Assembly: GCF_025766255.1 (NCBI RefSeq)
Contig: NW_026516676.1
Location: 367,501-431,500 of the forward strand
Length of the DNA: 64,000 bases
Direction of reading: 5' to 3'
Source of the DNA: Zychaea mexicana
Taxonomy: Eukaryota; Mucoromycota; Mucoromycetes; Mucorales; Lichtheimiaceae
How positions within the stretch are numbered: position 1 is the first letter of the stretch; each line of letters starts with the position of its first letter. Below, one piece after another: positions 28,731 through 45,240 of this stretch. Position numbers and translations under genes: made by a program. The notes beneath the pieces are model-generated. The model was not told where the DNA came from. It saw nothing but the letters and a program-made list of their open reading frames with translations, and did no database searches.

Positions 28731-28816
28731 GGGGACAAGTCGGAATTGATGCAATTTTACTATTATCTATTAACAAAATAAATACAATAGAAATTGAAAA
28801 AATAGTATAATAAAAA

Positions 28817-29227
28817 ATAGACATTGATAATATAAATATCGAATTTAAAAATAAATTAAATGATGAAGTTAATAAATTAATAGTTAATAATTGGAATTTC
28901 TTACAGGATCCTTGGCCTGAAATAAAAAATAGATTTAATCTTCGTATAAAAATAAAAGATATAAAAAGTAATGAAATTATGAAAGGAATAAAAAATGAAC
29001 TATTAGAAATATTAGGATATATTCCTGTTTATTATTTTTTAACTAAATTATATACTAACCGAGAATATCTAAGACCTTATCGTGAAGTAGAAAAAGGATT
29101 AATTTTACTATATTATATAGTATCTGGTAGAACAGGACCTGAAATGGTAAATATAAGTCCATACACATCTTTTAATGTTTTAGATAAGGATTTTTGGATA
29201 AATAAGTATAATAATATTAATAAATAA
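28817..29227 (+). pseudogene. Transposase N-terminal frame, copy A (start codon lost)
   Basis: The open frame runs from codon ATA at 28817, where copies C and D have ATG, to TAA at 29225-29227. It shares NNWNFLQDPWPEIKNRFN, GYIPVYYFLTKLYTNREY and VEKGLILLYYIVSG with copies C and D. The last segment resembles the helix-turn-helix preceding the catalytic core in HARBI1-like transposases. GAAATTGA, one mismatch from AAAATTGA, lies at 28790-28797. The next methionine in frame is at 28979, so an internally started protein would lack a third of the domain. Confidence 0.65.
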
Positions 29228-30310
29228 GTAAAAAATGATTTAGAAAATTTATTTTCAAATATAAAAATTAGAATTTTAGCAGCAAATACATATAATCCAA
29301 ATGGATTTGAAAATGTAACTTTATATATTGATGGTCATGATAGTAAAATAAAATACTATAATCTAAATGAAAGTAAAAGTGTATTGTATTTATATAAATT
29401 AAAGGGACCTGGTTTAAGAACTCAAATAATAGTAGATATTAATAAAAGTATTATATATATTTCAAATAGTGAAAAATGTGCAAAGGGTAATGATGGAACT
29501 ATGTTCCTTAATATGAAACTATATAAAAATATAAATAATCAAGATTGTATTGGAATAGATGGTGGATATAATCTATTTGTTGAAAAACTTATAGAAAATG
29601 CAAATGAATATGGTTATGATTTTAGTCATAATAATTTTGTTTATCCAATAAGAAAAGAGGTTAATAAAAATTTAACTGTTAATGAGTTAAATTATAATAG
29701 TAAATTTGGCTCATTTAGATCTGAAATTGAAAGTCAATTTTCTATATTAGCATCAAAATCTAATAGATTTAATAATAATAAAGCAGCATTATAAATGTCT
29801 GATAAAAAATATTATAATCTTCAATTCTGCATTGCATATTTATTAAAGAATATTTATAACTTTTGTGAAAGTTATAATATAGAAGTTCAATCTCATCATA
29901 TGGCATGGTATGGTGATAGATTTGAATTTCCTACAAAAATAAATAAAATTAATTTAGTTTTTAGTAGTGAACAAAAAGTAAATAAACAATATAAAGAATT
30001 GAGAGAATTACAATCTAAAATTTTAAATTCAAATATTGAAGATATTGAAAAGGATATAGAAAAAAATATAGATAATAATGAATTTTCAATAAATAATGTA
30101 CCTAAGAAAAGAAAACGTAACCAACAAAAGAATAATGATAATATATTTCAGGTAGAAAAAATAATAGATCATATGGTTGATAATAATAATAAATTAATAT
30201 TTTATATAAAATGGCTTAGTTATAGTGATGATGAAAATACCTGGGTAAAACAAAATGATTTTAATACAAAAGATATTGTTAATGATTATATGAAAGAAAA
30301 AAATCTTTAA
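29228..30310 (+). pseudogene. DDE transposase with C-terminal chromodomain, copy A (internal stop)
   Basis: Harbinger-like catalytic motifs are in place: YIDGHDSKI (first Asp), IGIDGGYNLF (second Asp) and FRSEIESQFS (Glu). An in-frame TAA at 29792-29794 occupies the position of a Gln codon in copy C, and the rest (YYNLQFCIAYLLKNI onward) continues in the same frame. The C-terminus (about 30148-30300) is a chromodomain: VEKIIDHMV, FYIKWLSYSDDENTW, with the aromatic cage residues Y/W/W recognisable. A 9 bp hairpin follows the stop. This frame is convergent with the zinc-protein remnant. Confidence 0.75.
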
Positions 30311-30343
30311 ATAAAAAAATAGTATAGTCTACCCTATATATTT

Positions 30344-30363
30344 AAAGAGGATAAATCCTCTTT
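30344..30363 (+). terminator. Hairpin after transposase copy A
   Basis: The nine-base perfect stem AAAGAGGAT / ATCCTCTTT, with a two-base loop followed by a T-run, begins 33 bases after the stop. It is the strongest of the stop-codon-associated inverted repeats in the A+T-rich blocks. It may mark the mRNA 3' end in the manner of mimivirus transcripts. Confidence 0.55.
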
Positions 30364-30555
30364 TTTTTATAAATATAATGAGTTACATCTGTATGAGTTA
30401 TTGCATTATTCTATTAATAATATCAGTAAAACTAAGAATCCCTCCATTGCATATATATATTCTTTTAATTTTTTTAATTTTTGTGATTTTTTTAGTATTA
30501 TTTCTTTTTTTTTCTGCTTTTTTTATTAGTGTTTTATTTTTTTTTTCTCTTTTTT

Positions 30556-30759
30556 TCATATATGTAGCTTACTATGTTGACAGCATAGAAAGTCAGGTTT
30601 ATTATTACCAATGTTTGTCTTAATCTTTTTATGACACATGCGACCCTCTTTTTTTCCTCTTCTATGTATATAGGTACATACATTTGGACTAGTATTCATA
30701 TACCAAAAATAGTTAGTTTTTGTTTCATCTATTTTTTCTTTTATTATAGGATTTTTCAT
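30556..30759 (-). pseudogene. Zinc-binding protein, copy A (N-terminus replaced by foldback arm)
   Basis: On the minus strand, CTYIHRRGKKEGRMC followed by 16 residues and CCQH reproduces the C-x13-C-x16-C-x2-H pattern of the intact copy at 34818-35297, including the HSKLHI that follows. The apparent ATG and first codons (about 30748-30759) come from the inner end of the foldback arm, so the true start is gone. The frame ends shortly after the motif, about 40 codons earlier than the other copy. Confidence 0.6.
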
Positions 30760-31284
30760 CTCCTAGCGGACGTTTGAACTTTTATTTAGGCAGAAGGGAT
30801 TTAATTTTAGGCAGAGTGGACATGAATGTTAATCCGAGTGGACATGAATGAAAATCGAGCTGGACATGAATGAAAATTGATCTGGACATGAATGAAAATC
30901 GAGCTAGACATGAATGAAAATCGAGCTGAACATGAATGAAAATTGAGCTGGACATGAATGAAAATCGATCTAGACATGAATGAAAATCGAGCTGGACTTG
31001 AATGAAAATCGAGCTGGACATGAATAAAGATCGAGCTGGACATGAGTATAAAACGATCTGGACATGAATATAAATTGACCTGGACACGAATATAAATCGA
31101 TCTGGACATGAGTAAAATCAATCTGGACAAGATAAAAATCAATCTGTTACTGAATGAAAATCATTCTGGACAAGAATAATAATCAATCTAAACATGAATA
31201 ATAGACAACCTGGACATAATAACAGTCAACTAAGACATAATAAAAGTTGAAGTAGATAATATATTAAGTGTTGTAGCAGAGCAG
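30748..31284 (-). repeat. Right terminal inverted repeat with 22 bp tandem repeats
   Basis: This is an inverted counterpart of the left arm: AGGATTTTTCATCTCCTAGC at the inner edge, a tandem array of the 22-base unit in complement form (GACATGAATGAAAATCGAGCTG type, about 30830-31130) and the unique outer segment ending TAGCAGAGCAG. The arrays of the two arms differ in unit order and several point changes, so they have diverged since insertion. Confidence 0.85.
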
Positions 31285-31626
31285 AATATTTGAGTATCTA
31301 AGATTTTCAATTCAAGTCAAGACATTATAGATGTTAAGCAGTACAAAGCCAATGTCACGATATAGTAGTATGGCTGTTTCACTCATGACAAGAAGCTTGT
31401 AGGCTAATGTACAGGAAATGGTAAGGGTACGTCAGAGACTCACTGTGTGCATAAGCTTATTTTGCTGCTATGGGAACAGGGCCTGAGCGTTTCCCCTCAT
31501 TTCATTTTACCCGGGTTGAGTTTGAAACAAATTGGAGGCTGGTGGCAGAGGTAGGTGGAAAGTGTGGGGTTTGTTAGCAGCAGCAGGGAGGAAAAAAACA
31601 ACAACCAAAGATCCTTTTTTTTCTCA

Positions 31627-32391
31627 TTACCATTTGCCACGGCAAATCAACAGCTTCGACGCACTGCTCGATAATGACATGACGGAGATTTTATGGTTGT
31701 AATAGTGTTCAGCGTAAACAACACCTTGCAACTTGTTCACCCTCATTAGCAATTCGGTCCTTCTGGTCTTTTCGTGTTGCCTTGGGAATGGAGTGGTTCG
31801 AGCCACCTTGAACTTCCTTCTTCGCAAAAATGATGGTTTAGTTGGATGGTTCGTCTTAGGTGCTTTGCGGGGGTAGCTGTTTCGTGGTTGCGGACATGCA
31901 ATGGAGATATGTCCTTTGTGAGCAGGACCGGGACAATCTTTGATAATGCAATCCTGAGCGTGGCAATATCTGCAATAATCACCCATCGATTGCCAGGTAC
32001 TATAGAAAACGCGATTATGATAGTGAAGGGCGCCGAAATCAATACAATGCGTTAGAGTTTCGTATCGTTCTTAATGGTTATCCTTGTTGGGCAACATGAA
32101 TACAGCAAAGCCTTTGCCTTGGAACCATCCGCCTTCCACGGACCGGTACAGGCCTAAGTGCTATACGTGTCTAAATTTAGATAGAGCCATTCTCAGTTTA
32201 AGCACAAGGTCACCAGATTTCAAACCGGTTGGTAGGCAACTTTGTGAGTCGTTATTCAGGAGGTAGAGAACGAACAGCCTGTTAGGGATGCCCTGCAATA
32301 TCAGAGCCACGAAGACAGGAATATAGACATGAGCGGTCAAGTCTTTTTGTTTTCTGGTTCCTTTTTCTTTGTTTTTCTTTCCAATAGCCAT
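31627..32391 (-). pseudogene. Retroelement Gag/ORF1-like zinc-knuckle fragment
   Basis: On the minus strand, frames at 31627-31986 and 32161-32391 have protein-like content. The first contains clustered Cys/His of zinc-knuckle type (CRYCHAQDCIIKDCPG, then HKGHISIACP) followed by a basic Arg/Lys-rich stretch. This arrangement is usual near the end of Gag or ORF1 of retroelements in these fungi. It is fragmented, with no matching reverse transcriptase beside it. It is flanked by the foldback element and a C2H2 gene. Confidence 0.45.
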
Positions 32392-32413
32392 TCGTTTTTC
32401 ATCATATTATATC

Positions 32414-34067
32414 ATGGCAGCCATCATATCTCTCAAAAGTTGTTGTTACATTTGTCATCGCCCATTTGCTGAATCAAAAAAGTTAAGAAATCATCTATTT
32501 ACTCTTCACAGTGTTGATGTTGAGCCTCGTCCTCATGGCAAAAGTCGTTACAACACTGAACACTACGTATACGTTAAAAAGAACTCGGACGCGTCACATT
32601 CAATGATATTGGAACATTTTGAATGCCCATCATGCCTCAATCACTACGCTACCATGAACGAGTTAAAGGATCATATTGCTTCGCACTATAGAAAGAAACA
32701 GCAATATGGTGAAAAAAGGAACGCTTCAACAAGCGATAAACAACAAAAGCAAGTAAGCGAGCAAATTTAATGGCATTTGATTATATCCTTCTCTACAGAT
32801 TTTTTTCTCACTCTATGCTTTCCATCTATTACATAGCCAGCAGATGCAGACGACGATACTGTTTCCAACAAGGTAGCATAAAATGCACCTGTTTTTTTTT
32901 TAAAAAAAACCGAGACTTAATTCAGTTCTACTTTTTAGAAGAAAAAATTATCGTGTTATGAAGGTGATTGTGATTCTCTCCACGAAATACTTTATTTTTG
33001 TAGGGCGGGGAAGCCCCCAGTCGGGGTTCAGTTTATTAAAGTGTGCAATTATCAGTAACTGCCAATAACGTTAAAGATACATAGTGTACAGGATGAAGTG
33101 ACTAAGACACGCCGATGTGCTTTAACTACGGACCAATCAAGAGTACCAGGGAGGACCATGCATATCTTGTCATAGCGATTTCCCACGAAGTGACGACCCA
33201 CAACAGGACAGCAGCGAGGGACAACAAGCAGCCGGATTCGAACTGACAACCTCTTGGACAGAAGTTACCTGCCTTGAACGAGTCAACCAGGGCCTGTGCT
33301 CTCTCTATGAGATACAAGAATCACTGGAATCCAGTTATGAAGATAAATTTAAAGTCAGTTTATGATCGTTGCTTTATTTGTGGGCGTTTCGTCTGGTAAG
33401 TTTTTGATTGGTCGTTAACTGGTCGTTCAGTCGCATTACTCACTTCATCTTCAGTATGAATCAAAGCCAGTCGACGGGATTGATACAGCTGTTGAAAAGA
33501 AGCTTGTGGATTTAGTATCTCCCTCCGATATTTTAAACAGAATGTCAGCCAGTATTATGCAGCAATGGCAATCAGGATATGATTTAGATGAGAGACTCAA
33601 GGAATCATTAAGGTACTGTACCGGTACAGAAGAGATATTAATACAGAAATATCTGTTTCAACTATTAATTTTCACATTTTTTATTTTCATGGGACAACCT
33701 CTCCCTTTCTTTGACCGTCAACACAATGATGGTTGGGAATCCACTGAAACCTCTCTTCGATCTGGGAACATGGAACATTTTTAGGACTGTTGGTGACGTC
33801 GATGGTATTGATGTGCTGCCAAAAATGGTCGATGAGCTTGTGATGGATATTGAAAAGGTAAGGAAAAAGTGCACTCATATACAACAATCAGTCAAAAGTA
33901 ATTGAATTTTTTCTATTTGAAAATACATGTAGGCATTAATGGAAGATGGCATCCTATCCTATATCAGGCAACTAACAAAATTGAAATCAGATTTTGTCAA
34001 TGACTCTATTGATTCCATTATGATTCAAGTCATTGATATATATGAGTTTGTGTATGATTTAGCTTAA
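32414..34067 (+). CDS. C2H2 zinc-finger protein of a lineage-specific family, possibly truncated
   Basis: Exon 1 starts at 32414 and encodes two C2H2 fingers, CYICHRPFAESKKLRNHLFTLH and, about 50 residues on, CPSCLNHYATMNELKDHIASHY. A long intron-like gap (about 32770-33455) precedes exons with VDLVSPSDILNRMSASIMQQW and WQSGYDLDERLKESLRY, then LGTWNIFRTVGDVDG and LTKLKSDFVNDSIDSIM. A TAA at 34065-34067 closes the frame. An A+T-rich block begins 90 bases later at 34158. Possibly the 3' part of this gene was displaced: related PD-(D/E)XK-like sequence resumes at about 37826. A tRNA-like sequence lies inside the large intron. Function is unknown; DNA binding is suggested by the fingers. Confidence 0.5.
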
Positions 34068-34222
34068 ACAAAATGAAAAATCACCAAAGTACTTGTGTTA
34101 ATGAACACCCTTTTTGATTTCTATTTAGCATCCGCCACATTAAAAAATGGGAGACAGGGGGACATCTAACTCCAATTAGATATTAGATAATACTATTGGC
34201 TGTAAAAATCCAAATTGTACAA

Positions 34223-34230
34223 AAAATTGA
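34223..34230 (+). promoter_or_regulatory. AAAATTGA motif upstream of unknown ORF
   Basis: Exact octamer, extended as AAAAAATTGAATTTT. It lies about 130 bases before the first long-frame ATG (34361). In-frame homologous-looking sequence may begin nearer, at about 34276, before a frameshift. Confidence 0.5.
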
Positions 34231-34360
34231 ATTTTGTATATATATAGAAACAATTGGTAAGAAAGGAATACCAGGTATGAATTCACATTATGTTATATAC
34301 CAGTTGAAGAAAATATTGTAAATATTACTGAATTTATAGCAAAATATTTATTATTAGAAT

Positions 34361-34720
34361 ATGTTCATCAAAAAATTGTATTTAGTATATAAAAGTGATA
34401 AAATTTATGATGGTGAGCATTATATTGTAAAGAAGCATATTAAAATTAACAAGTTGAAAATTAGAAATATTATATATGATCCTATATTTATTGCATATAA
34501 GCTAATTAAATTTAATCATTATAAGAATTTATTTAAAATAGTAGATCTGATTTTATTTATGAATATCATTAAAAAGATATTGAATGAAAAAGAATATATT
34601 GAAATTGATGAGCAAGATATTGAAGGATTTTTCAAAAATGATGATGAATTGTATATTGTAAATGGTAATGAATATAGGTTTCGAGAGCATTTAATAGAAA
34701 TGTTATTAGAAAACTATTAA
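34361..34720 (+). CDS. Unrecognised Lys/Ile-rich ORF, 119 codons
   Basis: I do not recognise this protein. It is rich in Lys, Ile, Asn and Tyr (for example YDGEHYIVKKHIKINKLKIRN) and ends with an acidic helix-like segment (EIDEQDIEGFFKNDDELYIV). A second open frame just upstream (EFTLCYIPVEENIV onward, about 34279-34375) could be its N-terminal part shifted by one base, so the gene may be broken. Composition resembles proteins of A+T-rich large DNA viruses, but that is not evidence of homology. It precedes the zinc-protein gene on the same strand. A perfect 7 bp hairpin sits on its stop codon. Confidence 0.45.
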   Translation: MFIKKLYLVYKSDKIYDGEHYIVKKHIKINKLKIRNIIYDPIFIAYKLIKFNHYKNLFKIVDLILFMNIIKKILNEKEYIEIDEQDIEGFFKNDDELYIVNGNEYRFREHLIEMLLENY

Positions 34721-34740
34721 TTTATACTAAGAAATAAATT
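34719..34740 (+). terminator. Hairpin at the stop of the unknown ORF
   Basis: The stem AATTTAT / ATAAATT (7 bp, perfect, 8-base loop) starts on the last two bases of the TAA stop (34718-34720). The same relation to a stop codon is seen at the zinc-protein gene and at the transposase N-terminal frames. Confidence 0.45.
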
Positions 34741-34764
34741 TTAAGCTCAATTACTTTTTTGACA

Positions 34765-34772
34765 AAAATTGA
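34765..34772 (+). promoter_or_regulatory. AAAATTGA motif upstream of zinc-protein gene
   Basis: Exact octamer within ACAAAAATTGAATTTTTGT, 45 bases before the ATG at 34818. It lies between the hairpin of the previous ORF and this start, as expected for an independent transcription unit. Confidence 0.6.
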
Positions 34773-34817
34773 ATTTTTGTATTTGAAAAAAGAAATTGTT
34801 TCAAAGATTCAATCAAA

Positions 34818-35297
34818 ATGGTTGCATTAAATGAATTCCTCCCAATCAACTATATCCAATTACGTAATAATCTTAACAAAGAATTAGATGTATTTATGGA
34901 AAATGAATTGGACTCTTACATTAATAAAAATATTGTAGAAAAATTAAAAATGAAATTACAAAATAAAATAAAGTCATTGTTTTCAACAGACTACTTTTTA
35001 TACTTGAGCATGAATAATGATTTTTGTACCTATAAATTTAAAAAAGGAAAACGTGATGGTCAGTTGTGTGGTAGAAATATCAGAACAAATTTACCTGATG
35101 GTAAAAAGGATTACCTTTGCCGTCAACATAGTAAGCTTCATATTCCTAAAAATAAAAAACTTGTTGTTTATAAATCTAATAACACTGAAGATGAGAAAAT
35201 TGAAAAAAAAGAAAACAAGAAAAAGAAAAAAACTAAACCTATTAAAATTATTACAGGAAACCCATTTTATTTATGTTTCAATTCAATCATTCCTTAA
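34818..35297 (+). CDS. Zinc-binding protein with C-x13-C-x16-C-x2-H motif
   Basis: The protein has 159 codons with no internal stop. The N-terminal half is helical (NNLNKELDVFMENELDSYIN). The centre carries FCTYKFKKGKRDGQLC and, 16 residues on, CRQHSKLH, giving C-x13-C-x16-C-x2-H; the same spacing occurs in copy A. The C-terminus is strongly basic with an EKKENKKKKK run. Similar Cys/His modules with a central G-x2-x-G-x-x-C pattern occur, from memory, in uncharacterised proteins of nucleocytoplasmic large DNA viruses; this needs a profile search. Role unknown; nucleic-acid binding is plausible. It has an AAAATTGA motif 45 bases upstream, a hairpin on the stop, and is convergent with transposase copy B. 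Confidence 0.6.
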   Translation: MVALNEFLPINYIQLRNNLNKELDVFMENELDSYINKNIVEKLKMKLQNKIKSLFSTDYFLYLSMNNDFCTYKFKKGKRDGQLCGRNIRTNLPDGKKDYLCRQHSKLHIPKNKKLVVYKSNNTEDEKIEKKENKKKKKTKPIKIITGNPFYLCFNSIIP

Positions 35298-35313
35298 ATA
35301 TAATCAATATTTA
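35295..35313 (+). terminator. Hairpin at the stop of the zinc-protein gene
   Basis: The stem TAAATAT / ATATTTA (7 bp, perfect, 5-base loop) begins with the stop codon TAA at 35295-35297. Confidence 0.5.
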
Positions 35314-35365
35314 TAAATAATATGGTATTAATGATATATTACCCAGAGTATGCAATTTTTTAATA

Positions 35366-36267
35366 TACCAAGATTATGATTATTGATATATTCCTTCAAT
35401 AAATCCTTTTGATTAAATTTATCAATTAATAACCAACTGTTATCATCAGCACTATATCCAGCCCATTTTACTTCAAACAAATATGTACCATTTTAGTTTT
35501 ATGCCTAATAATCTCTTCTATTTCATATGATGCTATTGCTCATTGTTTCCCTTTATTTCGCTTTCTTTTTTTACCACACTTATTAAATCTTGGAACATCA
35601 TCATTATCACTATTACTCTGATTTGAATTATTATCAGATTCATTATCAACAATCATTTCTTCATTTGATATAGCCATATTAAGCAGGTCATTTTGCAATC
35701 TGATCATTTTATCCAGTTTATCTTTATTTTGTTTATTATTGCTGACCACTATATCAATTAGTTTATGCTCTACTAAAAAATCAAAATCATTACTGTGCCA
35801 TAGTTTATAGTGTGGTAAAATAGGAATATTGAACATTTCTACAAATTTTGTAATATTTTCTAATAAACAAGCCACACAAAATTGCAGATTATAGTATTTT
35901 ATGTTATCTATCTAACAACTGACTTGTTATTATTGAATCGGCAAAATTTATTCCCAATTTCTGAAAATTGATTCTCAACTTTTGTCCTAAAACTTCCAAA
36001 TGTTTTATTAAAATGATCTTCAGTAATCATTAAGGGCTCATTTACATTTTTACGTATAGGGTATACAAAATTATCATGGCTAAAGTTATATCCTTTTTCA
36101 TTAGCAAGCTCTGTAAATTGTGTGATAAGAAAAGTATATCCACCATCAACTGCCATTATGTCATTCTCATGCATATATTTAAATAATTTCATGTTTAAAA
36201 ACATGCTACCATCTGAGCTATCAGAACAAAGTCACTTTTAAAAGTATAAATAATTATATCATTCATA
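35366..36267 (-). pseudogene. DDE transposase with chromodomain, copy B (truncated, frameshifted)
   Basis: On the minus strand the sequence starts inside the gene at the block C insertion point (36267), where copy C reads through. It includes MFLNMKLFKYMHEND, MAVDGGYTFL (second Asp), GSFRTKVENQFS (Glu), then after a frameshift near 35900 YYNLQFCVACLLENI, a Glu/Asp/Asn-rich linker, a basic KKRKRNKGK, and after another shift chromodomain residues FEVKWAGYSADDNSW (about 35400-35480). The first catalytic Asp is missing. This copy shows block C inserted into an already present transposase. Confidence 0.7.
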
Positions 36268-36301
36268 GGGGACCGGCCATGGTTATGATGATCTTAATGC
36301 G

Positions 36302-36318
36302 ATCTAGTAACCCTAGAT
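36302..36318 (+). promoter_or_regulatory. Leader hairpin, candidate replication origin (block C)
   Basis: A perfect 6 bp stem ATCTAG / CTAGAT with 5-base loop TAACC lies 34 bases from the GGGGAC end and is conserved at 39578-39594 in block D. HUH-type Rep proteins nick in or beside such hairpins. The loop is not the canonical CRESS nonanucleotide, so the assignment is tentative. Confidence 0.4.
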
Positions 36319-36412
36319 GACTTATTAGCTAAGATATATCAGGATAGCCAAATTAATTTTTATTGAAATAATTCATGCAGGAATGTCTTGGCATGCATAC
36401 ATTTAAATTTTT

Positions 36413-36420
36413 AAAATTGA
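36413..36420 (+). promoter_or_regulatory. AAAATTGA motif upstream of Rep copy 1
   Basis: Exact octamer in TTAAAATTGAATTTTTTTT, 87 bases before the Rep start codon at 36508. Confidence 0.55.
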
Positions 36421-36507
36421 ATTTTTTTTAATATAAAAATAATACCACAGAATATAAAGCAAAATATATTTGTTATATTTTTTATTTTTATTACTTCAAC
36501 AATCAAC

Positions 36508-37676
36508 ATGAACCAACTCAACCTTCTTGCATTCTTAGCCATTATGGCTGAATTTGTTCCTATTTAGGAATTACATTGACACTCTTAATTGAAAGAGCAA
36601 AACACCTTGCTGAAAACCATCAGCATATTGAGTATGAACCTCTTGTCACACAACTGAGGTCAGAACTCGAAAAAGACCTTACACAGACTAAAGTAGATAA
36701 AAAAACTAAAGCTAATGCATGCAATAAAATAATTGGAAGAATTCGAGAATATGTGAGATTCCTCAAATCCTCAACTCCTCAATTTTCCGATGCAATAATG
36801 TTAGAGGGTAACACCTCTGGTGCATATTCCTCACAGGGCGGCAAAGAATTCCGATTCTAAAACACTAAAGGGCTGTTCACATATATTTGTAAGGACTTCC
36901 ATTTAACAAAAGAACAAATCATGGAATGGTTTATAAAACATGAACGTATTGGTTATCGAATTGAAAAGGCAATTGCATGTGATGAAATTGCACCAGAAAC
37001 CAACGAGAAACATGTATACATATGGATACAAATGGATGAGCGGTTCGACACAAAAACAGCACGAAAATTCTTTACTATTGATGGTGTTACTCCAAATATT
37101 GAACCAGGTGGTAATCCACAAAAGTCTATTAGCTATTGTATGAAAGGAAAAGATTATATTTATTATAATAATCCAAATTATGAAATTAAAACCAGAAAAA
37201 TGCACCAACAGTTACTTGGATATCAATTAATTACTAAGCAGCTTAATATGCAGAAGGCTACCGAAATATATCCAGAATTGCTATGGAAATATAATACTGT
37301 AGAATCAAATTTAAATTCTTACTTTCATGATGCCGATATGGAAAATAACCCTGGAAATAAATTACATATGTGGTCTATGTTTGGTATTGAAACAATGTTT
37401 GGTGGTAAAAATAAGATACCACAATACTGGATTGTAGGTCCATCAAATGTAGGTAAGATATATAACATTGATGTATTAGAACAAGGTGGTCATCGAGCAT
37501 ATCTAATGAATAAAGAAAATGATTGGTCAGATTATAAGGATGATGATTATGATTTTATGTATAATGAAGAAACAGGTTCTGATTTCAAATTAACATTTTT
37601 AAACCAAATGTTAGAAGGAACACAGTTAAAACTTAATAGCAAATTCACAAAGTCAATAACTAAAAAGAAAAAATGA
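36508..37676 (+). pseudogene. CRESS-type Rep (HUH endonuclease plus SF3 helicase), copy 1, broken
   Basis: Collinear and very similar to copy 2 over its length. The start MNQLNLLAF is followed by a one-base deletion near 36565 and a nonsense TAA at 36858-36860, where copy 2 has Gln. Motif I (FTYICKDF) is intact. Motif II reads HVYIW, so the second His of the HUH pair is lost. Motif III keeps the Tyr of YCMK. The helicase Walker A is GPSNVGKI, with Ile where Ser/Thr is expected. The gene is cut after TKSITKKKK, just before helicase motif C. It cannot encode an active Rep. Confidence 0.8.
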
Positions 37677-37825
37677 GAAGTTTTGTTGTCTGACAGATAT
37701 GTCTTTAACTCCATCAATGAAAACTAGAACTTCAACTTTGGTAGCCAAGAAAATGATAGTCAAGTTATATTTTCATCACTTTTTATTTTTTATTTTTGCA
37801 AAAGGAGACCAGCTGGAAAAACTCA
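37673..37825. other. Unassigned 150 bp between Rep copy 1 and PD-(D/E)XK-like copy 2
   Basis: The sequence begins at the Rep truncation point and contains TCTTTAACTCCATCAATGAA and a T-rich stretch. It may be the 5' continuation of the PD-(D/E)XK-like gene that copy 1 lacks. No confident frame. Confidence 0.3.
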
Positions 37826-39318
37826 GTATTACTGTAATATATGAAAAATAGGCTCGAGATAGACCTGCTGAAGATGAACCTCTTAAAAAACGACAACATA
37901 TTAAAAAAGTGGATCCAGATTTTACAGACTCTAATATTATCAGTGATAGTGGTGAATCGGTAAGTAATTCACAGGTAATTTTTGATGATGGTAAGGATCG
38001 TAAAAGGAAATGATCGTCTGATATTAATCTTCTCTTATTACATATAATCTTTTTTTATTTATAGAATGATCCAACTAGTGCATTAACTGCATCATCTTAT
38101 TCTCCATCTGATTTGAAACATTCACCGTGTGGATTTACATGGCTATTTGATAATTGTGAACTGAAAAGAAACGATACACCACCAACACCATCACCAATCC
38201 TCAATTCGTCGATCCAACAACTTTTTGAAGAAGCTCAACAGCTGGTTAACGAAAATCACCTCTTCCCGTTCAACTTGACAAGTCGACTACAAGCCTCCGC
38301 AATATTTAAATCATCCTCGACCATTGGTACCATCCCCCGTTCACTCGTACACTATGAACTTTCCGAATCAATATATGCCAACATTCGTAGTTTGCAAAGA
38401 TCAATTCAACAAGAGCAACTGTACTCACCACCCAAAGGCAGCACCAGTATTGAAGAGTATACACTCAATAAATCCTCACAAGCATTTACACATTCCATGG
38501 TCGTCCTTTGATTCAATCAATTCATTCTGAAATTCATTTAATTGCTACCTCTGTATCTTTATTTATGGGTCCATTCTTTTCTGCCCATGATTCAGTTCAA
38601 TTAGATTAGGATGTAACATCTTGGATATATAAACAGCAAAACGAAGTGAATCCAAACAAATTACGACCTGACATTGCTCTAAATATCGAAGGCGAAAATG
38701 GTGTGATTGAAATTGGATGTGGTGAGGTGAAGAAAGACGATGCTGACTACTATCACAAAGAAGAAGCAAAAATTCGTGTCCTGGAGATTATGAAATGGCA
38801 ATTACATTTACGATTAAAATTAGCCAAGAAAGAATACCAAGGTGTCACGTTTGGCTTTGTATTTATTGGTATGAACAGTGTGTGGTGTAATGCATGATTT
38901 TGATTTTGATTTTCATATTAAAATTTAATACCCTATTTTTATATGCAGGTACAAAAGTTACATTATTAGAGATGAAGTTGGCTTTGGAGCATGGGGCGTA
39001 TATTTTTGAAGAATACCTATGTTTTACATTACCTACAACGTACAACACACACACTCACTTACAAACATCCATAGAACTCATGTTATCCTTCAAAGTATGT
39101 ATATTTATCAATGTTACTGTTATTGTTGTTGGCTTTAGGTTTTGTGTATATTTGTGAACGGTTGTTTAACGAGTATCCTGCTTTTTTCTAGAATCGGATT
39201 TTGGATTCTTTGTTGAAAGCTGAGCATGAGAAAGATAATGATGATGTTTGGCGTCAACATCGAGACTTTGTTCGACCGACAGCAGCTGCATTTGAACCAT
39301 TATATGATGAAGACTAGT
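37826..39318 (+). pseudogene. Lineage-specific gene with PD-(D/E)XK-like motif (copy 2)
   Basis: The segments are RPAEDEPLKKRQHIKKVDPDF, an intron (about 37958-38063), SPSDLKHSPCGFTWLFDN, IPRSLVHYELSESIYANIRS, NKLRPDIALNIEGENGVIEIG then CGEVKK (PD...ExK), a second intron, GTKVTLLEMKLALEHGAYIFEE and, after a third, VWRQHRDFVRPTAAAFEPLY with stop TAG near 39316-39318. It preserves the frame where copy 1 is shifted but has its own one-base loss near 38468. Both copies share the TAG at 38607-38609, so the gene was dead before duplication. It is longer at the 3' end than copy 1. Function is unknown; a nuclease-like fold is inferred only from PD and GEVK. Confidence 0.65.
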
Positions 39319-39543
39319 CGATAATGTTTATTTGTTGTACATTATTATCTTATATTGTGTACCCTTTTTTTTTGATACATGATCTTAAACACACACACAA
39401 CATATAAAATTTTCTTGCTCCTTTGTTACTATGTTCAAAATCGAGTTACTTTTATCTCGATTATCTTGTACTTTCGTCAAGGTACACCAACTCCAACACA
39501 CTCATAACAGCACTGTTTGCTGTCCTTTCTCTTCTTTCCTATT
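39319..39543. other. 3' flank of PD-(D/E)XK-like copy 2
   Basis: This is A+T-rich noncoding sequence with an ACAC run near 39391-39402. It ends CTATT immediately before the GGGGAC of block D. No duplication of CTATT is visible at the far side because the right end of block D is not defined. Confidence 0.35.
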
Positions 39544-39577
39544 GGGGACCGGCCATGGTTATGATGATTTTAATGCG

Positions 39578-39594
39578 ATCTAGTAACCCTAGAT
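39578..39594 (+). promoter_or_regulatory. Leader hairpin, candidate replication origin (block D)
   Basis: The same perfect stem ATCTAG / CTAGAT with loop TAACC as in block C, at the same distance from GGGGAC. One nearby base differs between the leaders (GATGATTTT versus GATGATCTT) while the hairpin is unchanged. Confidence 0.4.
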
Positions 39595-39698
39595 GACTTA
39601 TTAGCTAAGATATATCAGGATAGCCAAATTAATTTTTATTGAAATAATTCATGCATGAATGTCTTAGTATGCATATATTTAAATTTTTGAAAAAAATA

Positions 39699-39706
39699 AA
39701 AATTGA
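39699..39706 (+). promoter_or_regulatory. AAAATTGA motif upstream of Rep copy 2
   Basis: Exact octamer in ATAAAAATTGAATTAATTTT, 102 bases before the inferred Rep start at 39809. Confidence 0.55.
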
Positions 39707-39808
39707 ATTAATTTTTTAATATAAAAATAACACCACAGAATATAAAGCAAAATATATTTGTTATATTTTTTTAGCACTCCAACAAAACTACCCCAACGAA
39801 AACACAAT

Positions 39809-41899
39809 ATGGACCAAATGAACCTCCTCGAATTTATTCCTATTTTAGGAATAACATTGACGCTCTTAATAAAAAGAGCAAAGCATCTTGCTGAACATCA
39901 TCAAGATGTTAGTGAAAAAACAATTGCTGACCAACTAAGGGTCGAACTCGAAAAGGACCTCAAAAAGGCTAACATAACAAAGGAAGTAAGGGACGAGAAC
40001 CATACTGCAATAATGGGATGGATTAGGGCTTTTGCAAAATTCCTCAAATCCTCAAATCCTCAATTTTCCGATGCAATGTTAGAGGGTAACACCTCTGGTG
40101 CAGATTCCTTGCAGGGCGGCAAAGAATTCCGATTCCAAAACACTAAAGGGCTGTTCACATATATTTGTAAGGACTTCCATTTAACAAAAGAACAAATCAT
40201 GGAATGGTTTATAAAACATGAACGTATTGGTTATCGAATTGAAAAGGCAATTGTATGTGATGAAATTGCACCAGAAACTGGTGAGAAACATGTTCATATA
40301 TGGATACAAATGAATGAGCGGTTCGACACAAAAACAGCACATAAATTCTTTACTATCGATGGTGTTACTCAAAATATTAAACCAGGTGGTAATCCACAAA
40401 AGTCCATTAGCTCCTGTATGAAAGGAAAAGATTATATTTGCTATAATATGGATCCAAATTATGAAGTTAAGACCAGAAAAATGCACCGACAGTTACTTGG
40501 ATATCAACTAATTACGAAGCAGCTTAATATGCAGAAGGCTACCGAAATATATCCAGAATTGCTATGGAAATATGATACTGTAGAATCAAATTTAAATTCT
40601 TACTTTCATGATGCCGATATGGAAAATAACCCTGGAAATAAATTACATATGTGGTCTATGTTTGGTATTGAAACAATGTTTGGTGGTAAAAATAAGATAC
40701 CACAATACTGGATTGTAGGTCCATCAAATGTAGGTAAGATATATAACATTGATGTATTAGAACAAGGTGGCCATCGAGCCTATCTAATGAATAAAGAAAA
40801 TGATTGGTCAGATTATAAGGATGATGATTATGATTTTATGTATAATGAAGAAACAGGTTCTGATTTCAAATTAACATTTTTAAACCAAATGTTAGAAGGA
40901 ACACGGTTAAAACTTAATGGCAAATTCACAAAGTCAATAACTAAAAAGAAAAATATGCTAATAATACTGAATAGTAACTATATGCCGCACATGTTATACA
41001 AAAACAAATCAGTATATGAGTTAGAGCCAACGCTCAATCGTTTATATATTATCTATGTTGATAAGAACCGTAAAGGTCATATAATATGGAATCCATACAC
41101 AAAGAAGGTGAAGGATTATGAAAATAAATTCATGTATTATGAAAACATGGATATGTATGAGGACTTATACAAAGGTGAATTCGAAAACGAATACCAAGAT
41201 CAGCATACATTTATCCGTTATGCGCATAATAGTGGTCAGGATGATATTGAGAAATATACACCGATGGATAAAACAGTAGAGGAACTACAAGAATTAGCTG
41301 ACACAGAAGAATATATGAAGGAACAAGAAGAAAAACATAATAGTAATAATACACAGAACAATAAACAGCATAAACCGCCTCAACAAAATAATAGAGGATG
41401 GTCAACTGTAAAGGTACCATCATCAGTAGATTGTAGGCATTGGGAAGATGTGTTTAATGATATAAAATGTGATGATGTTGTAAATGATACTACTGATTGG
41501 GAAAACCCACCAGAAGATATAGAGAAACATAAATACATAGATGTAAGTACATCTGAATCAGAGAAAAGCAGTGACTGCAACATACCAAGTAATATACCAA
41601 AACGTAAAAAGAAAAAAAGACACATTAAAAATAAATGGAGAAATAAGCAAATAGTAGAAGAAATACAGCCAAAAGAATATTTTAAAAAGCATAAGGATAT
41701 AAAACAGGCTATAATAGATGATATAGATATAACAAAAGAAACTGACGTCAAAAATAAATCAACAGATACTAATATAAGTACAAGTATAACTAATGAATGC
41801 ATAAAACATAAATATAATTGGGCAAGTAAACGAAAAGTTGATACAGTCAGTTTCAATATGAATTTTTTTAATAAGCAAATAAGTAAGAAATTAATTTAG
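39809..41899 (+). CDS. CRESS-type Rep protein (HUH endonuclease plus SF3 helicase), copy 2, open but catalytically altered
   Basis: The open frame is about 696 codons. The ATG at 39809 (MDQMNLLEF) was chosen over 39758 because it aligns with the copy 1 start. From this start: a helical N-terminal region; motif I FTYICKDF (about 116); motif II HVHIWIQ (about 161, both His present); motif III ISSCMKGKDY (about 202), where the nucleophilic Tyr seen in copy 1 is Ser; SF3 Walker A GPSNVGKI (about 304, lacking Ser/Thr); Walker B-like DFMYNEE (about 342); and motif C IILNSNY (about 385). The C-terminal 250 residues are an Asn/Lys/Glu-rich extension with basic runs (KRKKKKR), long for a Rep. Known Reps initiate rolling-circle replication by nicking and joining a hairpin origin. 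As read, this copy should not nick normally. The stop (41897-41899) overlaps that of the convergent transposase. Confidence 0.8.
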   Translation: MDQMNLLEFIPILGITLTLLIKRAKHLAEHHQDVSEKTIADQLRVELEKDLKKANITKEVRDENHTAIMGWIRAFAKFLKSSNPQFSDAMLEGNTSGADSLQGGKEFRFQNTKGLFTYICKDFHLTKEQIMEWFIKHERIGYRIEKAIVCDEIAPETGEKHVHIWIQMNERFDTKTAHKFFTIDGVTQNIKPGGNPQKSISSCMKGKDYICYNMDPNYEVKTRKMHRQLLGYQLITKQLNMQKATEIYPELLWKYDTVESNLNSYFHDADMENNPGNKLHMWSMFGIETMFGGKNKIPQYWIVGPSNVGKIYNIDVLEQGGHRAYLMNKENDWSDYKDDDYDFMYNEETGSDFKLTFLNQMLEGTRLKLNGKFTKSITKKKNMLIILNSNYMPHMLYKNKSVYELEPTLNRLYIIYVDKNRKGHIIWNPYTKKVKDYENKFMYYENMDMYEDLYKGEFENEYQDQHTFIRYAHNSGQDDIEKYTPMDKTVEELQELADTEEYMKEQEEKHNSNNTQNNKQHKPPQQNNRGWSTVKVPSSVDCRHWEDVFNDIKCDDVVNDTTDWENPPEDIEKHKYIDVSTSESEKSSDCNIPSNIPKRKKKKRHIKNKWRNKQIVEEIQPKEYFKKHKDIKQAIIDDIDITKETDVKNKSTDTNISTSITNECIKHKYNWASKRKVDTVSFNMNFFNKQISKKLI

Positions 41900-42963
41900 A
41901 GCTGGATACCATGTGTGGCCATATATTCATGTAGCATTTCCCAGGAATTAAACTTATCAACTGTTAACCAACTATTATTCTTTACACTATATCCAACCCA
42001 CTTAACCTCAAATATGTACTTATTATCAGTATACACATGTCCTACAATCTTCTCAATTTCATATGAATTACTATGTTCTATATTTCTCTGTTCTCTTTGA
42101 TTTTTTCTCTTGCGTTTAGATGTATTATTTTCAGTTTCGTCTTCACTATCTATAGCCATATCTATTGATTGGTTAATGTTAAGCTGTAGAAATTTCTGCT
42201 GCATGTCAACTATTTCATTATATTCAGTATTTACTTTTTGCTCATTTGAAAATACTAAGTCAAGTTTGTTTTTCTTACTTGGGAATTCAAAATCTTTTCT
42301 ATACCATAATTTATGATGTGGTTTTACCTCTATATTATACTTATTTACAAATCGCCATATATTAGTAAGAATACAAGCAACACGAAACTGAATATTATAA
42401 TATCTTAAATCAGTTATTTGCAATGCTGCACGATTATTATTAAATCGTTCAAATTTAGAGCCTAACATAGAGAACTGTGCTTCTATTGCTGAACGAAATG
42501 ATCCAAACTTGTTATTAAAGTATGTCTCATTAATTGTTAACTTTTGTCCTGGTTCTTTTCTTATGGGATGTAAAAAATTACGGTCATAAAAACTATATCC
42601 AGCATCTGTCGCATTATCTTTAAACTTTTGTATAAATAAGTTATATCCACCATCCATTCCTAAACAATCTGCCTCACTTATTTTTTTATATAGTTTCATA
42701 TTAATAAACATAGTACCATCATTTCTGATAGCACATTTTTCAGATACTGAAACATGTGTAATTATTTCATTCATATCCTGTATAACTTGTGTACGTACAG
42801 CTGGCCCTTTTAATTTATATGAATATAATTGTGAATGTGACTCATTTGGTTTATAATACTTTATTTTACTATCATGTCCATCAATAAATAGTGTAACATT
42901 CTTAAAACCATCTGGATTGTTTATTATTGCTAATAGAATGCGAATACGTGGTGATGAGAACAT
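41896..42963 (-). CDS. Harbinger-like DDE transposase with C-terminal chromodomain, copy C
   Basis: The best-preserved copy, 355 codons with no internal stop. The start MFSSPRIRI (42963) aligns with MFSS in copy D. Catalytic residues: FIDGHDSKI (first Asp, near residue 29), CLGMDGGYNLF (second Asp) and FRSAIEAQFS (Glu), as in DDE_Tnp_4/HARBI1 enzymes; the FNNKFGSFR...FERFNNN context around the Glu is typical. An acidic linker and basic KRKRKNQREQR precede a chromodomain (about residues 300-350: YEIEKIVGHVY, FEVKWVGYSVKNNSW). Chromodomains usually bind methylated histone H3 tails and, in retrotransposons, steer integration to heterochromatin; their use here is inferred. The N-terminal helix-turn-helix is a separate frame upstream (43020-43385). 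It is convergent with Rep. Confidence 0.8.
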   Translation of the reverse strand: MFSSPRIRILLAIINNPDGFKNVTLFIDGHDSKIKYYKPNESHSQLYSYKLKGPAVRTQVIQDMNEIITHVSVSEKCAIRNDGTMFINMKLYKKISEADCLGMDGGYNLFIQKFKDNATDAGYSFYDRNFLHPIRKEPGQKLTINETYFNNKFGSFRSAIEAQFSMLGSKFERFNNNRAALQITDLRYYNIQFRVACILTNIWRFVNKYNIEVKPHHKLWYRKDFEFPSKKNKLDLVFSNEQKVNTEYNEIVDMQQKFLQLNINQSIDMAIDSEDETENNTSKRKRKNQREQRNIEHSNSYEIEKIVGHVYTDNKYIFEVKWVGYSVKNNSWLTVDKFNSWEMLHEYMATHGIQL

Positions 42964-43019
42964 ACTATCTAGATCTTGTTTTACCTTTTAATTCAATTCA
43001 TTACTGTATAGTTAGTAAT
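42963..43019 (-). terminator. Intergenic hairpin between the two transposase frames, copy C
   Basis: Directly next to the TAG stop of the N-terminal frame (43020-43022) is a perfect 6 bp stem ATTACT / AGTAAT (43000-43005 and 43014-43019, 8-base loop). Just past it lies AATTGAATT in minus orientation (42990-42998), about 27 bases before the ATG of the DDE frame. It matches six of eight bases of the AAAATTGA promoter element. This favours two separate transcription units over one interrupted gene. Confidence 0.4.
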
Positions 43020-43385
43020 CTAGAACCGCTTATATAAATCATAAAATGTTGCATATTGCATATCAGTATGCATATCCTTTCCTGATACACCTGATACCAT
43101 ATGATATAATAATGCAAGTCCTTTTTCAATCTTGCGGTATGGCCCTAGATATTCAATATTTCCATATAAAACTGTAAGAAAATAAAATACAGGTATAAAT
43201 CCAAATCTATTAAGTAATACATCCTTTATATCATTTATTGTATTATCCTTCATATCTTTAATAGCTGTTCTATGATTAAATCTATGTTGCATTTCAGGCC
43301 AAGATTTATCAAGAAAAGTCCATTTATTATCAATTAAATTTTTAATTTCAATATCGAGTTGTTCAGTGTGTTGTATTGTGTTCAT
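43020..43385 (-). CDS. Transposase N-terminal (helix-turn-helix) frame, copy C
   Basis: An intact 121-codon frame beginning MNTIQHTEQLDIEIKNLIDN and ending YDLYKRF. The segment RFGFIPVFYFLTVLYGNIEY and KIEKGLALLYHMVSG resembles the helical DNA-binding region that precedes the catalytic core in HARBI1-like transposases. Normally this would be fused to the DDE domain; here a TAG separates them and the downstream frame lies in another register. AAAATTGA (minus) is 77 bases upstream of the start, and a hairpin follows the stop. Confidence 0.6.
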   Translation of the reverse strand: MNTIQHTEQLDIEIKNLIDNKWTFLDKSWPEMQHRFNHRTAIKDMKDNTINDIKDVLLNRFGFIPVFYFLTVLYGNIEYLGPYRKIEKGLALLYHMVSGVSGKDMHTDMQYATFYDLYKRF

Positions 43386-43462
43386 TTTTATTTATTATTA
43401 TGTACTTTAAACAATCGCTCTTTTTTTTTCTCGTGGGAGGCTACCAATATTAGTAAAAAAAT

Positions 43463-43470
43463 TCAATTTT
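43463..43470 (-). promoter_or_regulatory. AAAATTGA motif upstream of transposase copy C
   Basis: Exact octamer on the minus strand within AATAAAAATTGAATTTTTTT, 77 bases before the start codon at 43385. Confidence 0.6.
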
Positions 43471-43574
43471 TATTATTTTTATTGTAAATCAATAATTAAT
43501 TCGTCCACTAATGGTTATACCAATCATAGCAATTTTATTATCTATATTACAGCTAGTAGATTATAATTAGTTAG
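43471..43574. other. Unassigned spacer between transposase copies C and D
   Basis: A+T-rich sequence with no frame. It may hold the junction of two elements; no GGGGAC or GTCCCC is visible here. Confidence 0.3.
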
Positions 43575-43821
43575 ACAACTAATAGCAGGACGCCATATCA
43601 CTAACAAATTGGGTACGTATTCCATTCTTCTTAAATTTATAAGAATACATTCTTTAAAAGTGGCCAATTTCAGTATCTACATAGTTAATTCTTGAATCAT
43701 AGCCATCCAATACAAGTGTTACATGTTTAAATAAGTCGGGATTATGCTTTCTAGCAGATAGAATACGTAATTTGATAGATGAAAACATGTTATTCATTGA
43801 ATCATTTACTATTTTGTTGAT
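43575..43821 (-). pseudogene. DDE transposase, copy D (only the first part remains)
   Basis: On the minus strand, MFSSIKLRILSARKHNPDLF, LVLDGYDSRI (first Asp) and, after a stop, MYSYKFKKNGIRTQFVSDM align with copy C. Similarity ends near 43575, so the second Asp, the Glu and the chromodomain are lost. Confidence 0.65.
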
Positions 43822-43824
43822 TCA
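43798..43824 (-). terminator. Hairpin at the stop of transposase N-terminal frame, copy D
   Basis: The perfect 7 bp stem TGAATCA / TGATTCA with a 13-base loop includes the TGA stop (43822-43824) as its first three bases on the minus strand. Confidence 0.45.
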
Positions 43825-44205
43825 TTTGTAGTTGTCCTCATCCATCTTAAACTTTTTATAAAATGTATGAAATATGCTATGTGGTAAGTAATTTTCAAAT
43901 TGTTCACTACATACTCCAGAGACTGAATGATATAATAAAAACAATCCTTTTTCAATTTCAAAGTAAGGTCCGGGATATTCCTTGTTTGTATATAAAACTA
44001 CTAGAAAATAAAATACAGCAACATAACCTAATTTACATAACAATTCATCCTTACTTTTATCTATGAATTTAATATGTCCCAAATCAGTTCTATGTTTATA
44101 TTTATTATATACAGTAGGCCAATTCCATTCTAGGAATTGCCAATAATTTGCAATAATTGAGTTTACTTCATTTGTAATTAGTGGTGTATAGTTTGTTGTA
44201 TCCAT
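43822..44205 (-). CDS. Transposase N-terminal frame, copy D
   Basis: An intact 127-codon frame, MDTTNYTPLITNEVNSIIAN to KFKMDEDNYK. It aligns with copy C (YWQFLEWNWPTVYNKYKHR; GYVAVFYFLVVLYTNKEY; EIEKGLFLLYHSVSG). It ends in TGA where copy A has TAA and copy C TAG. The catalytic partner frame next to it is truncated, so this copy survives alone. AAAATTGA lies 30 bases upstream. Confidence 0.6.
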   Translation of the reverse strand: MDTTNYTPLITNEVNSIIANYWQFLEWNWPTVYNKYKHRTDLGHIKFIDKSKDELLCKLGYVAVFYFLVVLYTNKEYPGPYFEIEKGLFLLYHSVSGVCSEQFENYLPHSIFHTFYKKFKMDEDNYK

Positions 44206-44235
44206 TGGGTCGTTCTTTATTTATATTTTGGATTT

Positions 44236-44243
44236 TCAATTTT
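44236..44243 (-). promoter_or_regulatory. AAAATTGA motif upstream of transposase copy D
   Basis: Exact octamer on the minus strand in ATAAAAATTGAAAATCC, 30 bases before ATG 44205. It pairs with an oppositely oriented motif at 44284-44291. Confidence 0.6.
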
Positions 44244-44283
44244 TATAATCACTGAATGCATGATTTTGGCTACATAATGTCAT

Positions 44284-44291
44284 AAAATTGA
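44284..44291 (+). promoter_or_regulatory. AAAATTGA motif upstream of a divergent truncated ORF
   Basis: Exact octamer on the plus strand, 31 bases before ATG 44323. Together with the minus-strand motif at 44236 it forms a compact divergent promoter between transposase D and the next ORF. Confidence 0.55.
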
Positions 44292-44322
44292 TAAAATATC
44301 AAAATAGATGATATAATTTAAT

Positions 44323-44373
44323 ATGGCAGCAAGCAATTTATTAGATTTACAAAAAACTATTGTAAATTTATAG
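44323..44373 (+). pseudogene. Truncated ORF start (MAASNLLDLQKTIVNL)
   Basis: Sixteen codons then TAG at the edge of block D, just before host-gene sequence begins. It is too short to classify. Its position after AAAATTGA suggests the beginning of a fifth element gene that was cut off by rearrangement. Confidence 0.35.
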
Positions 44374-44377
44374 CCAA

Positions 44378-45240
44378 TTTGGTACTGCACATCCCACACA
44401 GTTAAATACAACAAACCTACAGAAATGTATTTTTTGCAACTTTTCTATTAAGTCATCAGCATTTTACTCAGAGACGCTGATCTTATGCCGACAATGTAAG
44501 CTCTTAAAAGTATAAATAGAATATCAGTATTACAAATTCTTTGGTTGATGATTTTTACGCATTTAGTGGTGAAGAACAAGCAATGCAACGAGAGCGGCTC
44601 GTCAATTACATGGCAAATTTTTGGGTGATCGTCATAAAGTCAATGTTTACGGGCGAAAGGTTGATTTACTACTTTGCGTTTCTGATATGGAGCTCTGCGC
44701 GAACGAGTGGAAAGCATCGGCTTCTGACAATACCCTGGTGAGACAGCAATCCAAAAACGCTCGAGTAAATAAATGTCTGCTCGATAATATGACGAAGGTT
44801 CTCTCTGATGGTGGACTCAATGCTGATGAATGCAGTTTACTTAGCATGGATTGGACTGGTAAGCTGAAGATGACCATGAATGTATGAGAATAATCAGTAA
44901 TCATTTCGAAACGTTTCTAAAATAGAACTTAATGGATACATGTTCATCATCAGGAAGATTAATGGCGTAACAGTTGCTAATTCCTATTCATTTCAAAGAG
45001 TTGCGATCTTTTAAACAAACACTGGCATGTCTTTTATACTGGAAGGTCAGTACAATGATACATGTAATACTCTTCAAAATTAAATTAACAATGATTTCTG
45101 TGTTCTGTTTTTACCAATGATAGAATCACTACTTAAATTTAGCCGAAGAGTTGGAAAATGCAATGTTGATCCAAAAACGGAAGTTAGCTTTCAACAATGT
45201 TGTAGAAAGTTTGTCAATTCCTGTCCCTGATCGTAGTCCA
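44378..45240 (+). pseudogene. Fragment of a second lineage-specific family with PD-(D/E)XK-like motif
   Basis: Sequence HPTQLNTTNLQKCIFC, then LILCRQC across an intron (about 44496-44530) into SLVDDFYAFSGEEQAMQRERL, gives a C-x2-C...C-x2-C cluster. A one-base frameshift near 44620 leads to GDRHKVNVYGRKVDLLLCV and MELCANEWK, where Asp followed by E-x-x-x-E-W-K could be a nuclease-like core. Further exons supply FKELRSFKQTLACLLYWK and KFSRRVGKCNVDPK. The start is absent, cut by block D at the left. Such genes occur in large families in early-diverging fungi (from memory); function unknown. Confidence 0.5.

Follow-up and report, generated by a model that had tools for sequence, protein, structure and literature searches.

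How does a gene for a virus-type replication protein come to stand tail to tail with a transposase gene in a fungal genome? The question is raised by a 64,000-nucleotide stretch of Zychaea mexicana (Mucorales; contig NW_026516676.1, positions 367,501 to 431,500), hereafter the window, from a 50.3-Mb assembly of 305 contigs. It holds three AT-rich elements, A, B and D (GC 0.21, 0.25 and 0.30, compared with 43% in the surrounding DNA; Table 1). Element D combines, as a standing unit, a Rep of the kind found in circular Rep-encoding single-stranded (CRESS) DNA viruses, with an HUH nuclease and a superfamily 3 (SF3) helicase, and a DDE_Tnp_4 chromodomain transposase; in its sister elements, the place of Rep is held by a zinc protein. 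We propose, with a probability of roughly two in three, that D is a discrete two-gene transposon with a CRESS Rep, inserted by its DDE transposase, which Rep would replicate as a circle or concatemer and which would be transcribed from AAAATTGA sites. To our knowledge, HUH replication chemistry and DDE transposition normally reside in separate elements, and a 4-kb unit that holds both offers a direct model of module trade among viruses, plasmids and transposons.

Rep and transposase recur as one mobile unit

The Rep gene of D (plus strand) meets the transposase gene (minus strand) tail to tail, as an earlier reading made from the letters alone (the sequence-only reading) had described, and their stop codons overlap (TAG at 41897-41899, TAA at 41896-41898). 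These are the only frames of notable size in D, and a capsid gene is not among them. The same reading had named what would overturn it: that the two genes live apart everywhere else and meet here where unrelated insertions recombined. A search of the fungus's own genome returned at least 71 Rep matches (65 loci after merging) and at least 113 transposase matches, and a transposase match lay within 3 kb of 42 of the merged Rep loci: 38 of these pairs were convergent, two divergent and two on the same strand. Sixteen of the convergent pairs had the identical 3-base spacing with overlapping stops. These 38 pairs and their sharp common ends tell against such recombination points, as do the 3-bp target-site duplications and an apparent shared contig in a metagenome. 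The best Rep relative outside the genome (P0001) and a transposase relative (P0037) both have a longest contig of 4459 bases and come from one source; for this reason, the pair very likely recurs at about 50% identity, apparently on a single metagenome contig.

The boundaries of D are sharp. Homology starts at one base (GGGGACC) across copies with many unlike left flanks and ends on the right at GGACGCC; base 1 was the start in 36 of 40 scored left-end matches (70 candidates), and the last base was reached in 38 of 40 scored right-end matches (76 candidates). Eleven pairs of left and right ends were spaced 4031-4075 bp apart. By eye, the termini form at best a weak inverted repeat, agreeing at 7 of 10 bases (GGGGACCGGC versus GGCGTCCTGC). 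Among the nine insertions for which both flanks were read, tandem-joined copies being excluded, six carried perfect 3-bp target-site duplications: ATA (in the window), ACA, ATG, ATT, CTA and CTC. Empty sites, which the sequence-only reading had suggested as a guide to the ends, back one of these insertions: the B copies at four other loci (L041, L044, L051 and L053) run unbroken across the site of the window insertion, reading CATTCATATCACTAAC in L041 where the window has CATTCATA, the insertion and then ATATCACTAAC. The ATA duplication belongs to this composite insertion, and the complete D inside it has unmatched immediate flanks (ATT and ATA). For element B, a target-site duplication was sought and none was established. 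Because of the sharp ends, the 3-bp duplications and the empty site, we conclude that D is a mobile element and not debris.

Elsewhere in the genome (contig C79, 237492-257237), two inverted D copies share a right flank and have wholly unlike left flanks, the break falling exactly at the left end of D. We make no claim for a largely conserved TAGTAACCCTA stretch near that end (TAGTAGCCCTA in L022 and L037), in which no compensatory changes were seen by eye.

The two proteins of element D

The Rep frame (39746-41899, plus strand; first ATG at 39809) is open for 717 codons. It contains an HVH motif, a YxxK region and the stretches GPSNVGK, DFMYNEET and ILNSNYMP, which we take to be the HUH nuclease motif, the YxxK motif and the SF3 helicase motifs, respectively. 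The Pfam family Gemini_AL1 matched the window Rep under its cut-off (E 7e-4, 20 bits, cut-off 24) and was matched by 8 of 12 members of the Rep family (best 2.3e-8), and a profile of the family retrieved a geminivirus-type Rep from the PDB (7e-9). An AlphaFold model was fair in the HUH part alone (pLDDT about 80; 55 for the whole model, with pTM 0.34). With this part, Foldseek found the Rep of tomato yellow leaf curl virus (TM 0.83 by target length) and also that of Vientovirus; the helicases of adeno-associated virus and papillomavirus were matched with poor superposition. Across 30 Rep loci, the motif III tyrosine and the Walker-A GKT were each conserved in 29, the window copy being the sole exception for both, and HxH was conserved in 27. 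Because it has lost the motif III tyrosine and the Walker-A threonine, the window copy of Rep is probably inactive despite its open frame. Substitutions favour third codon positions, both in Rep (0.052/0.045/0.084 for the three positions) and in the D transposase (0.029/0.012/0.036). One tryptophan codon in Rep motif II is a stop in 13 of the 30 loci (L011-L036).

The D transposase matched DDE_Tnp_4 (2.2e-11; 44 bits, cut-off 24.8) and Chromo (8.8e-6), both over the cut-off. Across 17 transposase sequences, with the positions of the DDE triad assigned by us, the first aspartate and the glutamate were invariant and the second aspartate was kept in at least 90%. Within the window, the transposase genes of A, B and D are all interrupted; at other genomic loci, D-type transposase frames are open for about 500 codons.

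Exchange of the transposase partner

According to the sequence-only reading, a zinc protein in A and B is convergent with the same transposase as in D. The orientation holds (in B, zinc plus and transposase minus; in A, transposase plus and a truncated zinc-like open reading frame (ORF) minus), whereas the transposases are not the same: those of A and B have 54% and 45% amino acid identity to that of D. The zinc protein had no Pfam match above noise, and its structure model was unusable (pLDDT 47). A match from the transposase list lay within 3 kb of 35 of the 147 merged zinc loci, and 29 of these pairs were convergent, four on the same strand and two divergent. Because D- and A-like copies are over-represented in that list, the other 112 loci say little.

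One locus (L063) joins the two kinds of element. Its left subterminal DNA is of D type (82.6% over 109 columns), as is its transposase (84.5% nucleotide and 82% amino acid identity), and a zinc gene occupies the Rep slot. The transposase tree unites D with L063 and two Circinella proteins and places P0037 in a different branch; A and B, whose partner is the zinc protein, fall elsewhere. From this placement and from L063, we deduce that the transposase partner, Rep or zinc protein, has been swapped at least once, so that the exchange is visible within a single genome. The idea that the two modules form a unit stands overall, but they recombine within the family: next to the zinc-for-Rep replacement at L063, the Rep alleles are mosaic, with blocks at 15-25% on a background of about 2% among D copies. 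Over 20 copies of D, median distances were 2.5% for the transposase and 6.4% for Rep.

Two further observations concern the zinc-type elements. Rep relatives P0003 and P0004 have cysteine-rich C-terminal stretches that resemble the zinc protein. The window copy of B also has an extra 119-amino-acid ORF (34361-34717) with AAAATTGA upstream and no Pfam match, which is deleted from several B copies.

Junctions between element copies

At seven sites (on contigs C51, C53, C79, C115, C174, C194 and C303), a right end is followed by 15 bp close to AATTTTAAAAATTCA and then by a left end. Searches with this linker did not find it beside a single end; the leftover row in each search was a match with two or three mismatches, and controls gave such rows too (4 and 1). 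The three right-hand partners that we examined belong to three different Rep allele groups, and the left partner on C79 is a different AT-rich element that has only about 25 terminal bases in common with D. This arrangement suggests that the linker joins element ends in a circle or concatemer, a joint that would be inherited through replication and lost on insertion. The comparison with an ambisense CRESS circle that had been drawn from the sequence fits the gene layout; for the rest it leans on these head-to-tail junctions, the circle itself not having been observed.

We picture a cycle in which the DDE_Tnp_4 chromodomain transposase would insert D and give rise to the 3-bp duplications, Rep would nick and replicate a circular or concatemeric D with its ends joined through the 15-bp linker, and the transposase would reinsert the copies, dropping the linker. 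The genes of D would be transcribed from AAAATTGA sites, which resemble the early promoters of giant viruses.

A promoter-like motif and the giant-virus question

AAAATTGA occurred within 150 nucleotides before the ATG in most of the genes scored (Rep, 23 of 26; zinc, 18 of 26; D transposase, 2 of 2; B transposase, 1 of 1), compared with shuffled means of 0.62, 0.87, 0.04 and 0.01, respectively; the copies scored are largely close kin and hence not independent. It started 95-111 nucleotides before the ATG in Rep genes, 40-109 in zinc genes, 84-85 in D-transposase genes and 38 in the B-transposase gene, and it was also found upstream in zinc families that are just about 56-59% identical. Element A has at best a near match. 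Counts in host parts of the window were at chance (3 and 3, with 3.1 and 1.8 expected), whereas B had 6 (1.1 expected) and D had 3 (0.9 expected). Genome-wide, AAAATTGAATTTT was counted 477 times and its reversed control 8 times. Of 100 listed AAAATTGAATTTT places, 49 had a Rep, zinc or transposase match no more than 1 kb away, in regions that make up 1.7% of the genome; the remaining 51 are without explanation.

AAAATTGA has been published as an early promoter of mimiviruses, Cafeteria roenbergensis virus (CroV) and pacmanvirus. PMC5294985 places it upstream of 45% of mimivirus genes and in 35% of CroV genes; PMC11788076 reports it in 44% of pacmanvirus genes and draws transpovirons as carriers of the promoters of their host virus. 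Because AAAATTGA equals a published giant-virus early promoter, we keep as serious, albeit unlikely, the view that all three elements integrate as parasites of a large fungal DNA virus or serve as provirophage-like, host-borne responders to it. The transcription proteins of such a virus would read AAAATTGA, Rep would amplify the element during infection and the transposase would store it in the host genome, which makes this view an extension of the explanation that we prefer and not its opposite. The position of the motif upstream of genes, its genomic excess, the listed places close to element genes and its chance frequency in host DNA are consistent with a viral reader, as are the published viral and transpoviron examples, the low GC (0.21-0.30 compared with 0.43) and the long uninterrupted Rep frames. 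On the other hand, neither Capsid_NCLDV (PF04451) nor VLTF3 (PF04947) had a match in the assembly, a search in which the control genomes were silent too; scans of IMG/VR yielded no relatives of Rep, the transposase or the zinc protein; and half of the listed motif places lack an explanation. The motif could also be a transposase-binding site, because inverted copies of it are found close to the two ends of D. Dependence of D on a giant virus is possible. Should AAAATTGA prove to act as a promoter at these sites, the elements would also indicate a so far unseen giant virus of Mucorales, together with a system of the provirophage kind. The most far-reaching version, a new class of mobile element in the form of a capsid-less circular replicon of Mucorales with a CRESS Rep acting at the 15-bp junction, a DDE integrase, a giant-virus-early switch and a genomic library of satellites, strikes us as improbable.

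Weighing the explanations

The sequence-only reading had offered three options. The first, a transposon that adopted a Rep, is the best supported; the second, a satellite of a large DNA virus, stays alive owing to AAAATTGA; the third, viral debris carrying a transposon, found no support. Several results weigh against a Rep-replicated transposon. No duplication was present at three of the nine insertions (C262, C242 and C35:287k), stop codons are present in many Rep and transposase copies, and 23 of the 65 Rep loci had no transposase match within 3 kb, the transposase list being a lower bound. Contrary to expectation, Rep and transposase showed no co-divergence: their distances among copies did not correlate (r 0.16; 351 of 2000 permutations as high), which we attribute to the mosaic Rep alleles. 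Folding of the junctions was no better than that of shuffles. The terminal regions and junctions of D contained no CRESS nonanucleotide and no iterons, and the sole loose-pattern nonanucleotide match in D falls inside the Rep gene. Finally, in array C115, if the final three bases of the linker are counted, the right-hand copy has TCA on either side, the pattern expected of an insertion in its own right; in C174 and C79, the other two readable arrays, the flanks of the right-hand copy are unmatched.

In a further alternative, a DDE transposon captured a functionless Rep as passive cargo, and the arrays all go back to a single old insertion of two copies side by side that was then spread through the genome; this origin of the arrays is the main rival to our reading of the junctions. 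Linker variants differ about as much as the elements do, array C115 fits a separate insertion, stops are frequent in Rep genes and Rep divergence exceeds transposase divergence, all of which this account would accommodate. The passive-cargo account sits poorly with a pair retained at 38 loci and, very likely, at about 50% identity in a second species, with the third-position bias and the nearly universal motif III tyrosine of Rep, and with the C79 linker, which joins D to an element that shares little beyond its terminal bases; we regard it as doubtful. That a Rep relic and a transposon, inserted independently, were merely brought together by recombination has next to no chance of being right: the window does show nesting, with copies cut short and with D' (a truncated D copy) parted from D by a gene fragment, but the same pair, spacing and ends recur genome-wide, and we rejected this account on the 38 convergent pairs among 42 neighbours, 16 of them with one spacing.

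Comparison with known systems

D resembles PIF/Harbinger elements in its DDE_Tnp_4 transposase, its 3-bp target-site duplications and its two convergent genes. The second protein of PIF/Harbinger elements is Myb-like, whereas in D and its sisters this place is taken by a CRESS-type Rep or by an orphan zinc protein; D also differs in its chromodomain, its weak terminal inverted repeat and duplications that go beyond TWA. Although its transposase and the length of its duplications are PIF/Harbinger-like, we do not file D as an ordinary member of this group, because the Myb partner is absent. With CRESS DNA viruses (geminiviruses, redondoviruses and endogenous Reps), D shares a Rep with HUH nuclease and SF3 helicase, and as a circle it would be ambisense with one intergenic region. 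Unlike them, it has no capsid gene, no nonanucleotide stem-loop was found in it, and it exists as a transposon whose ends are fixed and whose insertions bear target-site duplications, with junctions that are head-to-tail only. Helitrons and Replitrons are likewise eukaryotic mobile elements with an HUH nuclease. They are not known to carry a DDE transposase, and Helitrons insert without duplicating their target, whereas D makes 3-bp duplications (6 of 9) and has a CRESS-type Rep with an SF3 helicase. Transpovirons and virophages are, like D, small and AT-rich, with genes behind motifs that resemble giant-virus promoters; no common genes were shown, no giant virus was detected in searches whose controls were silent too, and D, at about 4 kb, is dispersed in a fungal genome with 3-bp duplications.

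Among named proteins, those closest to the D transposase come from Mucorales: three belong to Circinella minor (74-77%) and others to Mucor, Phascolomyces and Lichtheimia. Outside the own genome, we found 11 Rep relatives (two from Rhizopus, nine from metagenomes), 184 transposase relatives (the best 120 listed) and one zinc protein relative. Searches of plasmids and GTDB genomes gave no relatives, and PHROGs gave no match. In the open-licence literature searched, no title or abstract opening retrieved described a Rep plus DDE element, although an earlier description (for example, in Repbase reports) may exist, and nothing was found there on endogenous viral elements or giant viruses of Mucoromycota.

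Layout and surroundings of the elements

The elements are nested: a 7.3-kb insertion (36268-43594), which contains D', a gene fragment and the complete D, splits B (34158-44394) at 36267. The stretch singled out by the sequence-only reading (28731..44377) begins at the left end of A, and the right end of B lies 17 bases beyond its last position.

Table 1 Features of elements A, B and D in the window
Feature	Position	Strand	Remark
Element D, complete copy	39544..43594		4051 bp; Rep and transposase convergent; ends set by many own-genome copies
D left end, GGGGACCGGC	39544..39553	+	
D right end, GCAGGACGCC	43585..43594	+	
AAAATTGA upstream of Rep	39699..39706	+	
Rep, HUH endonuclease and SF3 helicase	39809..41899	+	Ser at motif III Tyr, Ile at Walker-A Thr in window copy
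D transposase, catalytic part and chromodomain	41896..42987	-	DDE_Tnp_4, Chromo
D transposase, N-terminal part	43020..43385	-	parted from remainder by a break in window copy
AAAATTGA upstream of D transposase	43463..43470	-	
D', second D copy, truncated	36268..37675	+	left end and part of Rep
Gene fragment separating D' from D	37816..39061	+	97% identity to 27530-28730
Left target-site duplication ATA of composite insertion in B	36265..36267		empty site in L041, L044, L051, L053
Right target-site duplication ATA of composite insertion	43595..43597		
Element B, left part	34158..36267		
Element B, right part	43595..44394		
AAAATTGA upstream of B zinc protein	34765..34772	+	
B zinc protein	34818..35297	+	C-x13-C-x16-C-x2-H, orphan family
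B transposase, fragments	35540..36239	-	
B transposase, N-terminal part	43822..44205	-	severed by insertion
AAAATTGA upstream of B transposase	44236..44243	-	
Element A	28731..30741		left end 28731, right end not fixed
A transposase	28814..30310	+	three frames, Chromo domain
A zinc-like ORF, truncated	30559..30762	-	

The two members of the gene-fragment pair (27530-28730 and 37816-39061), which are presumably Crinkler-like, adjoin elements A and D, respectively. Arms of 22-bp tandem repeats in inverted orientation (26967-27545 and 30742-31284) flank the first fragment and element A, and the same repeats adjoin zinc-type elements at other loci (L002, L006, L043, L044 and L062). Immediately left of the repeat arm lies a retroelement (25581-27064) with an RVT_1 reverse transcriptase domain, which we assume to be DIRS-like. 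Farther right, inverted repeat arms at 45541-45999 and 48833-49291 (97% identity), with transposase-like ORFs close by, probably belong to a transposon of Tc1 type, the type being a guess.

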